Shown in pieces: positions 33,040-39,623 of a stretch of DNA of 64,000 nt (its first letter is position 1; every line of letters starts with the position of its first letter). The DNA lies in assembly GCF_000331025.1 (NCBI RefSeq), contig NC_020055.1, positions 408,370-472,369 of the forward strand, in the 5' to 3' direction. A program made the translations under genes and the position numbers. Origin of the DNA: Maridesulfovibrio hydrothermalis AM13 = DSM 14728. Lineage in GTDB: Bacteria > Desulfobacterota > Desulfovibrionia > Desulfovibrionales > Desulfovibrionaceae. The notes below the pieces were generated by a model. It made no database searches, was not told the DNA's origin, and worked only from the letters and a program-made list of their open reading frames with translations.

Positions 33040-33447
33040 TTATTTCTTTTTCTTGGGGTGACAATCGCCACACTTAGTAGGACCAGTCTTCTCTTTAGCC
33101 TTCTTCAGAGCCTTATGACAGCCTACACAGCTGAAATCGGCTTTAGCATGGAAAGCAGAGTAGAAAGAGTCAGGCTTTTTCTTGCCTTTTTTACTGGTGT
33201 CAACGTGACAACCTTCGTTAGAACATTTTTTAATAGCAGCTTTGCCGTCCCAATTGTGGTGACACTTAGTACAGTCAACAGCGGCATGTCCTTTGTGAGA
33301 AAAATCCACAGGGGACTTGGTCATTTTAGCACCTGCGGGTGCTTTAAGAACCATATCGCCGGGGGCGTCTACAGCGTACAGGCTGGGCAGCGCAAATGCA
33401 CATACCAGAGCAGCTGTTACCATGCAGATAAGCAGGGTCTTCTTCAT
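33040..33447 (-). CDS. tetraheme cytochrome c3 (type I)
   Basis: Periplasmic tetraheme electron carrier between hydrogenases and membrane redox complexes. The 135-residue precursor has a signal peptide MKKTLLICMVTAALVCAFALPSLYA, then DFSHKGHAAVDCTKCHH (heme 1), CSNEGCH (heme 2, CX4CH), CVGCH (heme 3) and CGDCH (heme 4). The PVDFSHKGH and FYSAFH segments provide the distal histidines. Many type I c3 proteins have CX4CH at heme 4; here it is CX2CH, a known minor variant. AGGAGG lies eight bases before the ATG. Lys-rich surface (KKGKKKP, HPKKKK) is typical for docking hydrogenase. Upstream lie cbiH, cbiG and hemL, an arrangement I recall from D. vulgaris. Confidence 0.96.
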   Translation of the reverse strand: MKKTLLICMVTAALVCAFALPSLYAVDAPGDMVLKAPAGAKMTKSPVDFSHKGHAAVDCTKCHHNWDGKAAIKKCSNEGCHVDTSKKGKKKPDSFYSAFHAKADFSCVGCHKALKKAKEKTGPTKCGDCHPKKKK

Positions 33448-36871: not shown

Positions 36872-37357
36872 CTATTTTTGTTCGAAATAAACCATAGAGG
36901 TCTTTTTCATCTCTTTAAGACTGCGCAGTATGCTGTGGTCGGTAATTCCGGTCTGCTCCATAAGTTCTTTGACCACATTCTTGCAGTCATCCGGCCCTTT
37001 ACCATGGATCATTGTATAGAGATTGTACGGCCAGTCATCATAAGTCTTACGCAGATAACAATGACTGATTTCAGGGCGCGCGGCCATTAATTCACCGACC
37101 CCTTCAGGATCCTGATCTTCCTCCACCCGCCATGCGACCATGGCATTTGCGCCGTAGCCGGCTTTCTGATGGCGCAATGTAGCACCGAAACGACGGATAA
37201 TCTTATCATCTTTGAGCCTGCTTAAAAGTTCGATGACGGTCTGCTCATCGGTCCCTGCCTGCTCGGCGATATCTGCGTAAGGGGTAGCACTTTCACTCAG
37301 ATTAGTACCTGCAAACGCCAGAATATTATTTTCAAGGTCACTAAATTTTTTTGCCAT
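36872..37357 (-). CDS. ahbB: siroheme decarboxylase subunit (AhbB-like, Lrp/AsnC fold)
   Basis: A 161-residue protein with an N-terminal winged-helix region (YADIAEQAGTDEQTVIELLSRLKDDKIIRRFGATLRHQKAGYGANAMVAWRV) and a C-terminal ferredoxin-like domain (HCYLRKTYDDWPYNLYTMIHGK). The RRFGATLRHQ and DWPYNLYTM motifs mark the AhbA/AhbB/NirDLGH family, not ordinary Lrp regulators; by motif it looks closest to AhbB. AhbA and AhbB together decarboxylate siroheme to didecarboxysiroheme in the alternative heme pathway of sulfate reducers. Only one subunit is in this window. It precedes hemL by 124 bases on the same strand. Older annotations would call it an AsnC regulator. Confidence 0.82.
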   Translation of the reverse strand: MAKKFSDLENNILAFAGTNLSESATPYADIAEQAGTDEQTVIELLSRLKDDKIIRRFGATLRHQKAGYGANAMVAWRVEEDQDPEGVGELMAARPEISHCYLRKTYDDWPYNLYTMIHGKGPDDCKNVVKELMEQTGITDHSILRSLKEMKKTSMVYFEQK

Positions 37358-37682
37358 ATCCCATCCTTCACTTCGGCCTAGAGTAAATGATCAAGGGCCG
37401 GATTCGTTTTTTTAATTTAATCGTTGATACCTGCATATCGCCTCATCCTCAAGGGTTGAGAATGAAATATTTATTTTCTACCTTAAAATCATACCTTAGC
37501 AGGCATCGTGTTATAAATTTTGCCCAACTACCATTCTTTTTTGGTCTAAGTCATGGACTAAAGGACAAACATGTGAGACATTTTAAATACTGTAAACTTT
37601 TATAAGGAGGTTGCTGCTAAATTTTTTTTAAAGGAATGAGGACGAAAGAGATAACTCCTAACAGCATGGAGGTGACTGGAAA

Positions 37683-38252
37683 ATGCCGGGAAACCCTAAG
37701 AAGACAGGGAAAAGCGGATTCAGTCGCAGATGGCGTTGGGGAGTTGTATCGGGACTTCTGATTGCAGTGATCACGGTGCTTGCCTCCGGTTACATGGTAG
37801 ACGTAACGAACACTGATATATTTTGTCAGACCTGTCATGCCATGAAACCGTTCCGGGCTTCTTGGAAAAAATCCGTGCATGGAGGGGAGAACCCGCAGGG
37901 CTTCGCAGCACAATGCGTTGACTGTCATCTTCCGCACGGTAATTTTGTGGAATATATGACCACAAAAGCCATCACCGGGACACATGACGTAATCATGAAT
38001 CTCATCATCGACCCGGCCGAATTCGACTGGGCCGCCAATGCAGAGAAGAACAGGCTTAAGTTTACATATGACAATGCTTGCAGGCATTGCCATGTGCAAC
38101 TTGAACCACGCGGTGTTAAACCGGGTGCTCTTCTCGCCCACCGGGCTTATCTCTATGGGCAGACCGACAAGAAATGCGCAAGTTGTCACCCGCATGTCGG
38201 TCACAAAAACATGATTGAAATGGCCAACAAGTTCTTCGAAAAGGACTTATGA
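37683..38252 (+). CDS. NapC/NrfH-type tetraheme quinol dehydrogenase
   Basis: A 189-residue membrane-anchored cytochrome. A cytoplasmic basic N-terminus (KKTGKSGFSRRWRW) precedes one uncleaved membrane helix (about 19-40). Four heme motifs follow: C48QTC51H52, C79VDC82H83, C133RHC136H137 and C165ASC168H169. Heme 1 has CxxCHxM (Met54), the unusual axial-Met feature of NrfH. The protein takes electrons from menaquinol and passes them to a periplasmic partner. GGAGG lies ten bases before the ATG. The octaheme gene begins 18 bases after its stop, so the pair is an operon. The partner is not NrfA, so it is better compared with the CycX-type anchors that accompany HAO-like enzymes. The 325-base gap upstream (37358-37682) holds its promoter; no other gene is visible there. 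Confidence 0.9.
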   Translation: MPGNPKKTGKSGFSRRWRWGVVSGLLIAVITVLASGYMVDVTNTDIFCQTCHAMKPFRASWKKSVHGGENPQGFAAQCVDCHLPHGNFVEYMTTKAITGTHDVIMNLIIDPAEFDWAANAEKNRLKFTYDNACRHCHVQLEPRGVKPGALLAHRAYLYGQTDKKCASCHPHVGHKNMIEMANKFFEKDL

Positions 38253-38270
38253 TTCCAACTGGGGGTAATC

Positions 38271-39623
38271 ATGTTGAAACAGATGATTAAAGTTATGACA
38301 GTTACGATGCTTATCGCGCTGTCCGCAGCTCTCGCTTATGCTGCAACTGAACCTTTTCCCAACCTTGCACCTAAAGAACTGGTTGTAAAAAGGGGCTTTT
38401 CCAAAGAAGCTACAAACTGTATTGAGTGTCACGCCAAAAAAACACCCGGAATCGTTGAAAACTGGAAGATGGGTAAAATGGCGCATGCCACAGTATCTTG
38501 CTACGACTGCCATATCGTTGAAAAAAATTCACCCATGGCCAGCCAGTGTGAAGGTCTTAAAGGCACCGGCCTTTTTATCTCACCCATGGTTTCTTCTAAA
38601 ACCTGTTCCCGCTGTCACCCGCAGGAAGTAGACCAGTTCCTCAAGAGCGGTCATGCCAGACTGTCCGGTGTTCCAGTTATTGAAAGTAAAAAGTTCATTA
38701 AACTTATGTACTACTACGAAGGTGCAGAGTTTATCGGTGTTAAAGCCGGCTCAGGTACAAGCATGGCTTCAAGGGCATCCGGTTGCCAGATGTGTCACGG
38801 TACACAGGTTGAACTCGGTCCCGATAACAAGCCTATCAACAACACATGGCCCGGCGGCGTAGGAACACGCTACCCTGACGGTTCCATCGGAACCTGTACC
38901 GTATGTCATACCAGACATATGTTCTCCATTAAAGAAGCCCGCAAGCCTGAAGCCTGCGCAAGCTGTCACCTCGGCCCTGACCATCCTCAGGCTGAGATTT
39001 ATGAAGAGTCCAAGCATGGACAGATTTTCGCTGCACACGGCGAAGACTGGAAATGGGACAGTGCTCCTGACACATGGCAGCCCGGCGACTACGATGCACC
39101 GACCTGTGCAGTCTGCCATATGTCCGGTATCGGTGAGCTTTCCACCTCTCATAACGTTAATGAACGTCTCAAGTGGGATCTCATGCATAAGAAGAGCGTC
39201 ATCCGCAGCGGCGAACGCGGCGACGGTGAAAAAGGCGATAAACTTATGCGCAAGGTCTGCGTAAACTGTCATGGACAGACTCATACCGATGTCCAGCGTC
39301 AGTTGCTTGATGATGCTGTAGCCCTCTACAACACCTATTGGGACGGCGCAGTGAAAATGAAGAAGGAACTTGCTGATAAGGGACTTCTGCTCACTGATGA
39401 TCCGTGGAATGACGGTTTTCAGGAGCTGATGTACTATCTCTGGCATCATTGCGGTAGACGTGCCCGTCACGGTACTGCCATGAATGGCCCTGACTATTCA
39501 CATTGGCACGGTTTCTTCCAGGTATTCCAGGTTTACAAAGATATGCAGAAAATCCATGAATACCGCTTGAAGAACGGTAAAATCGAGGAACTGTCTCATG
39601 TAATGAGCACCGGTCCTCTTTAA
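38271..39623 (+). CDS. octaheme cytochrome c of the hydroxylamine oxidoreductase family
   Basis: A 450-residue periplasmic protein with a signal peptide (cleavage near AYA-AT). Eight CxxCH motifs are present at C50, C77, C112, C172, C209, C229, C279 and C330; there is no CxxCK, so it is not a pentaheme NrfA. After heme 6 comes HLGPDHPQ (D237-H238), the Asp-His pair of the HAO active site next to the catalytic heme, followed by EIYEESKHG. The C-terminal [20 protein letters not shown] segment is also HAO-like; whether Tyr409 equals the crosslinking Tyr of ammonia-oxidiser HAO needs an alignment. Paired with a quinol dehydrogenase it would act as a reductase, for nitrite, hydroxylamine or a related substrate. 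A terminator follows. Confidence 0.88.

Follow-up and report, generated by a model that had tools for sequence, protein, structure and literature searches.

A quinol dehydrogenase and octaheme cytochrome c gene pair found in place of nrfHA in congeneric sulfate reducers, with a possible role in nitrite reduction

An NrfH-like Gene Paired with an Octaheme Cytochrome c Gene

We analyzed a gene pair in a stretch of DNA of 64,000 nucleotides (hereafter, the window). As shown in Table 1, an NrfH-like gene is followed, after 18 bases, by a gene for an octaheme cytochrome c of the HAO family (OCC). The original prediction had described the pair as an NrfH-like protein with an octaheme HAO-family cytochrome, not NrfA, and the PF03264, PF13447 and PDB matches agreed with it. 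The NrfH-like protein has a single N-terminal hydrophobic helix with a hydropathy peak at residue 21, and its four hemes, its one N-terminal helix and its profile match are those of the PF03264 family. NrfH (2j7a) was its only PDB match at E ≤ 0.1 (1.7e-9), and the NrfH equivalog TIGR03153 scored 78.7 bits on it, under the curated cut-off of 134.2. The product is predicted to be an NrfH/NapC-type tetraheme quinol dehydrogenase, HaoC/CycB-like.

The CxxCH motifs of OCC are at residues 50, 77, 112, 172, 209, 229, 279 and 330, and the GPDHPQ motif spans residues 235-240. A motif scan of the 450-aa translation found no CxxCK that could have been missed in the first reading of the sequence. The N-terminus resembles a signal peptide, and the protein looks exported. 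No nrfA was found elsewhere in the same genome by a whole-genome profile search with PF02335 (NrfA) at E ≤ 0.001.

Table 1. Features of the gene pair and of the adjoining DNA in the window.
Feature	Position	Strand	Description
AhbB-like siroheme decarboxylase	36872..37357	-	PF17805, PF22451; left edge of swap locus, flank only
TGGTCTAAGTCA, degraded TGACTTAAGTCA copy	37542..37553		3 mismatches; congener upstream alignment
NrfH-like gene	37683..38252	+	189 aa, four CxxCH, PF03264 NapC/NirT 9.5e-30
OCC (octaheme cytochrome c, HAO family) gene	38271..39623	+	450 aa, eight CxxCH, PF13447 1.7e-30
Cys93, extra non-heme Cys, codon 93	38547..38549	+	35/35 in clade, between hemes 2 and 3
Fourth heme CQMCH, codons 172-176	38784..38798	+	aligned with HAO C229/C232/H233, profile alignment
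Asp-His, codons 237-238	38979..38984	+	aligned with HAO D267/H268, strong central segment
His411, codon 411	39501..39503	+	aligned with HAO Tyr467 through P0003 Tyr398

Family and Active-Site Residues of OCC

Against the PDB, OCC had 10 matches at E ≤ 1, eight of which were HAO-family chains or the HAO-like 4qo5. The best were 4qo5 (1.2e-41), 6h5l (6.8e-25) and N. europaea HAO 4fas (8.5e-23), and the other two were NrfA 3ubr (3.4e-4) and NrfH 2j7a (0.39). A best alignment to an octaheme nitrite or tetrathionate reductase, the outcome that had been named as speaking against an HAO-type protein, was not seen, as no OTR, MccA or octaheme nitrite reductase (ONR) chain was among these 10 matches. 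OTR has eight CxxCH motifs with a non-motif Lys ligand. With its eight CxxCH motifs and PF13447 match, OCC is a member of the HAO family; it has neither the CxxCK heme nor the PF02335 match of NrfA, and it lacks the CxxCK of the ONR active heme (PMC12285233). An AlphaFold model of OCC built from 35 alignment rows was poor (mean pLDDT 58.8). The structures closest to it were chains of the HAO family, aligned over 119-141 residues in the C-terminal half (Z about 7), and 4qo5, aligned over 245 residues (Z 6.1, rmsd 12.6); this may lend weak support to HAO-family kinship.

The fourth heme of OCC falls on C229/C232/H233 of HAO, presumably the HAO catalytic heme, in a segment that is short and below significance alone, and the heme order in the profile alignment agrees with that of HAO. 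The partner of D237/H238, the Asp-His pair of GPDHPQ, is D267/H268, which we take to be the distal Asp-His of the HAO active site; the pair is thus kept, as originally proposed, and was invariant in 35/35 rows of the OCC alignment A1. At the sequence level, the fourth heme of OCC is predicted to be an active-site heme with a distal Asp-His.

The C-terminus of OCC gave no direct alignment with that of N. europaea HAO, so we used as a bridge P0003, the second octaheme protein of locus L018, which aligns with both the OCC clade and HAO (i-Evalue 0.00014 for the HAO C-terminus). By this route HAO Tyr467 corresponds to P0003 Tyr398 and to OCC His411, which was found in 47/47 clade sequences, and the HAO Tyr334 column is Met305 in the profile alignment. 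Tyr409, which had been considered as the cross-linking Tyr, was ruled out by the alignment through this Tyr-bearing protein. OCC does not have the Tyr that oxidative (cross-linked) HAO/HDH carries at the Tyr467 position for P460, and by its residues it is of the 'reductive' type, with His at the cross-link position. According to the literature, the key site holds His in reductive HAOs and Tyr in oxidative ones (PMC12758564), and for HAO proteins that lack the Tyr a reductive function is reported or predicted (PMC12758564, PMC8940962). Since heme 4 is without a Tyr cross-link, the site should favor reduction.

Among 47 sequences, 174 OCC positions were near-invariant (≥97%), D237/H238 and H411 included. 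The extra Cys93 is missing from seven sequences of a 44% identical clade (clade B, see below) and could not be placed near heme 4 in the poor AlphaFold model.

Exchange with nrfHA at One Locus in the Genus

The ahbB-side locus was searched in all 17 congeneric genomes with eleven proteins, namely seven flanking proteins, OCC and its NrfH, and NrfA and its NrfH. While ahbB was present in 17/17, nrfH-OCC lay beside it in eight genomes (G000, which is the window's, G001, G005, G006, G007, G011, G012 and G014), and nrfH-nrfA lay in the same place and orientation in four (G003, G008, G010 and G016). The protein search of the locus returned neither pair in four others (G002, G009, G013 and G015), and only an OCC-type nrfH remnant, the first 41 codons, in G004. 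Genus-wide, strong NrfA was present in 4/17 genomes, OCC in 8/17 and both in 0/17 (exclusion, p=0.053). Weak PF02335 matches (E about 1e-4) in the OCC genomes G005, G006 and G012, that of G006 exceeding the cut-off once frame neighbors were added, were taken for putative other multiheme proteins.

On the other side of the locus, gpsA, cheV and an AMP ligase gene were found in most genomes and in none of the fetched stretches of G003, G007, G011 and G012; gpsA was about 7 kb away in G008 and reversed in G015, and the locus of G010 was split over two contigs. The intergenic DNA from ahbB to shortly before nrfH was alignable between the OCC and NrfA versions. In a phylogeny built from as many as six flanking proteins, some missing and G011 represented by three only, the NrfA genomes grouped with G011 (OCC), G001 (OCC) and G004 (remnant). 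The OCC tree, with G001 and G011 as sisters, broadly follows the genus. We read these trees as suggesting that OCC was ancestral at the locus and that NrfHA took its place at least once, the number and direction of swaps depending on the tree root and on the placement of G011 (support 0.71).

The congeners' NrfHA has the same locus, the same promoter DNA and an NrfH-type partner as nrfH-OCC has; however, NrfA carries four CxxCH and one CxxCK whereas OCC carries eight CxxCH without CxxCK, and the two types of NrfH are only 25-27% identical. The genomic evidence that nrfH-OCC stands in for NrfHA is unusually strong. Because it holds the slot of NrfA and shares its promoter, the pair in all likelihood serves a similar function, by means of a very different enzyme that would escape ordinary gene surveys.

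Two further observations concern this region. The remnant of G004 is at L156 5773-5895, with the rest of nrfH and OCC gone and the promoter palindrome decayed (2 mismatches), and looks like a recent deletion. In the window, a small cytochrome c3-like gene with three CxxCH and one CxxxxCH lies at 33040-33447 on the minus strand, and a c3-like gene was near the ahbB-side locus, within the fetched DNA, in 13/17 congeners.

A Promoter Palindrome Pointing to HcpR

In an alignment of nine rows from eight congeners, most rows upstream of nrfH contained the palindrome TGACTTAAGTCA. The 17 genomes held 18 copies of it (11 for a reversed control pattern, whose sites were not located). All 18 were located, 10 at hcpR-like genes, five at nrfH-OCC promoters and three at nrfH-nrfA promoters. 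The site at nrfH was perfect in 5/8 OCC genomes and 3/4 NrfA genomes, and the imperfect copies had three mismatches in the window and in G006, four in G005 and five in the NrfA genome G010. In the window's genome, TGACTTAAGTCA stands at an hcpR-like gene that has frdX and hcp within a few kb. The palindrome matches the HcpR consensus for delta-proteobacteria, wyTTGACnnnnGTCAArw, and the predicted targets of HcpR in Desulfuromonas and Geobacter include nrfHA (PMC1274295). Given this fit and the 48% identity of the hcpR-like protein to the hcp-linked regulator of L004, we infer that the regulator acting at TGACTTAAGTCA is probably HcpR.

We also scanned for TTGACnnnnGTCAA. No perfect TTGACnnnnGTCAA site was present upstream of nrfH in 45 non-empty stretches from wider relatives and congeners, so that the HcpR promoter link is shown only in the window's genus; with one mismatch, the site occurred only in L001 and L051, both of that genus. 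The window's own genome has one perfect TTGACnnnnGTCAA, not at the nrfH-OCC locus (10 for the reversed control), and a site with one mismatch at hcp. No sigma-54 site was found upstream of the window's nrfH.

That OCC is a non-catalytic electron-transfer or redox-storage cytochrome in a hot-swap locus seems to us very improbable. The locus has neither pair in 4/17 congeners, so the gene pair is dispensable, and Desulfobacterota have up to dozens of multiheme cytochromes (PMC12758564), both of which would suit such a role; however, D237/H238 and H411 are among the near-invariant positions, and the promoter is common with nrfHA.

Distribution of OCC and Its Gene Context

A scan reaching no further than close relatives found relatives of OCC at 49 genome_contigs loci, with 63-85% identity over the best segment, and the titles of all 49 name Desulfobacterota groups or 'Deltaproteobacteria'. 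This recurrence indicates that the window pair is not a chance arrangement. A NrfH-like gene lay beside OCC in 42/49; of the seven loci without it, five have OCC at a contig edge (L019, L021, L038, L044 and L046), and the real misses are L041 and L049, where upstream DNA is available. A porin-like gene (PF13372 in L002) also recurred beside the OCC pair, in L002, L017, L018, L025, L040 and L049.

Among 297 genomes of the order, 105 had some OCC match and 23 were counted as carrying the close clade, at a best E below 1e-200 and an identity of at least 64%. PF02335 matched in 200 of the 297, of which 182 were counted strong and 18, with best E above 1e-30, were set aside as weak. Strong NrfA was present in 2/23 OCC genomes (G139 and G176) against 180/274 others (Fisher 7.5e-8, ancestry ignored), an association that is confounded by shared ancestry. 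OCC and NrfA thus do not exclude each other in general, since G139 and G176 carry both.

Within the DNA fetched around OCC, hcp was found at 11/49 loci, an HcpR-like gene at 10/49 and either at 13/49, hcp not being found in the fetched DNA of the other 38. The hcp linkage came in at least four gene arrangements: a Desulfoluna-type arrangement accounted for 6/11 loci, and the others were L005, L013/L015, L024 and L043. About 0.2 hcp genes would be expected in 505 kb if a genome has one or two, a rough rate to be read with the related OCC loci not being independent. For comparison, hcp was near 3/16 nrfA loci in stretches of 11-16 kb. At six OCC loci (L012, L014, L023, L039, L043 and L047), a two-component system that includes a sigma-54 regulator is encoded divergently. 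A sigma-54 promoter-like site preceded nrfH in L012 (two mismatches), L014, L039 and L043, and the rest of the 45 non-empty upstream stretches scanned had none. Over about 480 aa, the regulators of L023 and L047 share 44% and 43% identity with the nrfHA-divergent regulator of L088, which by position only would be NrfR; NrfS-NrfR control nrf (PMC5701242, PMC12285233).

This context bears on two other readings of OCC. It could be a scavenger of hydroxylamine or NO, with nitrite left to another enzyme, for example through a side activity of siroheme sulfite reductase. This reading overlaps with the nitrite-reductase explanation, and we regard it as unlikely: the hcp/HcpR-like neighborhood would suit it, HcpR responds to NO (PMC5701242, PMC12750200) and NO reduction may be an activity of Hcp itself (PMC10949509), whereas the nrfHA swap and the nrfHA-type two-component regulator in L023 and L047 point to nitrite. 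OCC could also reduce sulfite, thiosulfate, tetrathionate or a similar sulfur species, a proposal that the restriction of the 49 titles to the groups named above would fit. Sulfur reduction has been proposed, and called speculative, for a related clade I protein from Auka vent MAGs, and two enzymes of the wider superfamily, MccA and OTR, use sulfur substrates (PMC9213671). However, OCC shares locus and promoter with nrfHA, has HcpR-type sites and is linked to hcp; its PDB matches at E ≤ 1 include neither OTR nor MccA; and no sulfur gene was recognized in the 25 most recurrent neighbor clusters, most of which had no profile identification. A sulfur substrate is therefore improbable in our view.

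Proposed Function of nrfH-OCC

We propose that nrfH-OCC encodes a quinol-linked periplasmic reductase, most likely of nitrite, that is interchangeable with NrfHA in the genus, and we put the probability of this reading at about 0.72. Electrons would pass from the membrane quinol pool to the NrfH-like protein and through the octaheme chain of OCC to heme 4, where nitrite would be reduced with hydroxylamine and/or NO as an intermediate or co-substrate. The end product may be ammonium directly, or hydroxylamine or NO may be handed to Hcp, which is part of the pathway proposed for Nautilia (PMC3701875). The main role would be nitrite or nitrosative detoxification. We infer the transfer of electrons from NrfH to OCC, catalysis by OCC, the use of menaquinol, nitrite as the substrate, and ammonium versus hydroxylamine as the product. 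As for the menaquinol-linked reductase suggested at the outset, gene context points to nitrite or nitrosative chemistry, while its tetrathionate-like variant found no counterpart in the PDB search. We lean, by a small margin, to the wider view that His-type NrfH-OCC pairs form a quinol-linked nitrite reductase class of their own, which has the same function as NrfHA, has been naturally exchanged with it at one promoter and is spread among Desulfobacterota that nrfA-based surveys would take to lack nitrite reduction.

Comparison with Known Systems and Significance

In the reverse-HURM system of Nautilia (HaoA with a CycB/NapC-type cytochrome) and in eHao, a NapC/NrfH-family quinol dehydrogenase is likewise combined with a Tyr-less octaheme HAO. 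The two Nautilia genes lie apart (NAMH_0559 and NAMH_1280; PMC3701875), whereas nrfH and OCC are adjacent in the window. By its published description, epsilonproteobacterial eHao has Trp at the Tyr position, with a Met eight residues before it (PMC8940962); in OCC the aligned column is His411, and the adjoining Trp412 has Met404 eight residues before it. The epsilonproteobacterial parallel drawn originally holds for the kind of pair; the residue type is described as Trp there, and the aligned column has His here. No swap at an NrfA locus was found for the Nautilia or eHao systems in the portions of the literature examined.

N. europaea HAO (1fgj, 4fas) has eight hemes and D267/H268 in common with OCC. 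However, Tyr467 and Tyr334 are replaced by His411 and Met305 in OCC, which is about 100 residues shorter, and N. europaea HAO is oxidative whereas OCC is read as reductive. The closest PDB sequence, 4qo5 ('hypothetical multiheme protein'), presumably the Ignicoccus hospitalis octaheme cytochrome, has the C-terminal motif GTAMNG in common with OCC, but it has Asp-Val where OCC has Asp-His, and its chain is about 70 residues longer. Like OCC, 6h5l ('similar to hydroxylamine oxidoreductase'), which we take to be Kuenenia Kuste4574, is of the HAO family with a GPDHP motif and no Tyr at the aligned cross-link column, where it has Trp and OCC has His411. Kuste4574 is found in a Rieske/cytochrome b complex, in contrast to the NrfH partner of OCC, and slow reduction of nitrite to NO is described for HAOr (PMC12485887).

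An NrfH/NapC-linked, Tyr-less HAO-family reductase is a known kind. HAO relatives are already in print for Desulfobacterota (PMC9213671), where many HAO-like proteins occur (PMC12758564), and HAO-family function outside the nitrifier/anammox and Campylobacterota groups is stated to be unknown in the former source. No report of an exchange between an HAO-family protein and NrfA at one locus was found in the open-access literature searched. Since closely related sulfate reducers naturally carry either this pair or NrfHA at the same promoter, a direct genetic test is at hand. If the reading is true, surveys based on nrfA underestimate the extent of nitrite ammonification or detoxification in sulfidic sediments, Desulfobacterota seemingly unable to reduce nitrite in such surveys would have OCC, and a function would be assigned to some of the HAO-family proteins that fall outside the nitrifier/anammox clade. 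Nitrite is used to suppress sulfate reducers, so an OCC gene would then predict tolerance.

Other octaheme proteins accompany this clade. In L018 (3382-4665) and L020 (1470-2783), a second octaheme HAO-family protein is encoded just upstream of nrfH-OCC; it has Tyr at the HAO Tyr467 column (DYAYW), adjoining the His-type OCC, and is a candidate for a cross-linked (oxidative) HAO within Desulfobacterota. The octaheme clade B (L081-L087), 44% identical and from the same order, carries Trp at the cross-link column in the seven sequences read, is accompanied by a NrfH-like ORF in 6/7 loci, and is present in a larger number of the order's genomes than the His clade is.
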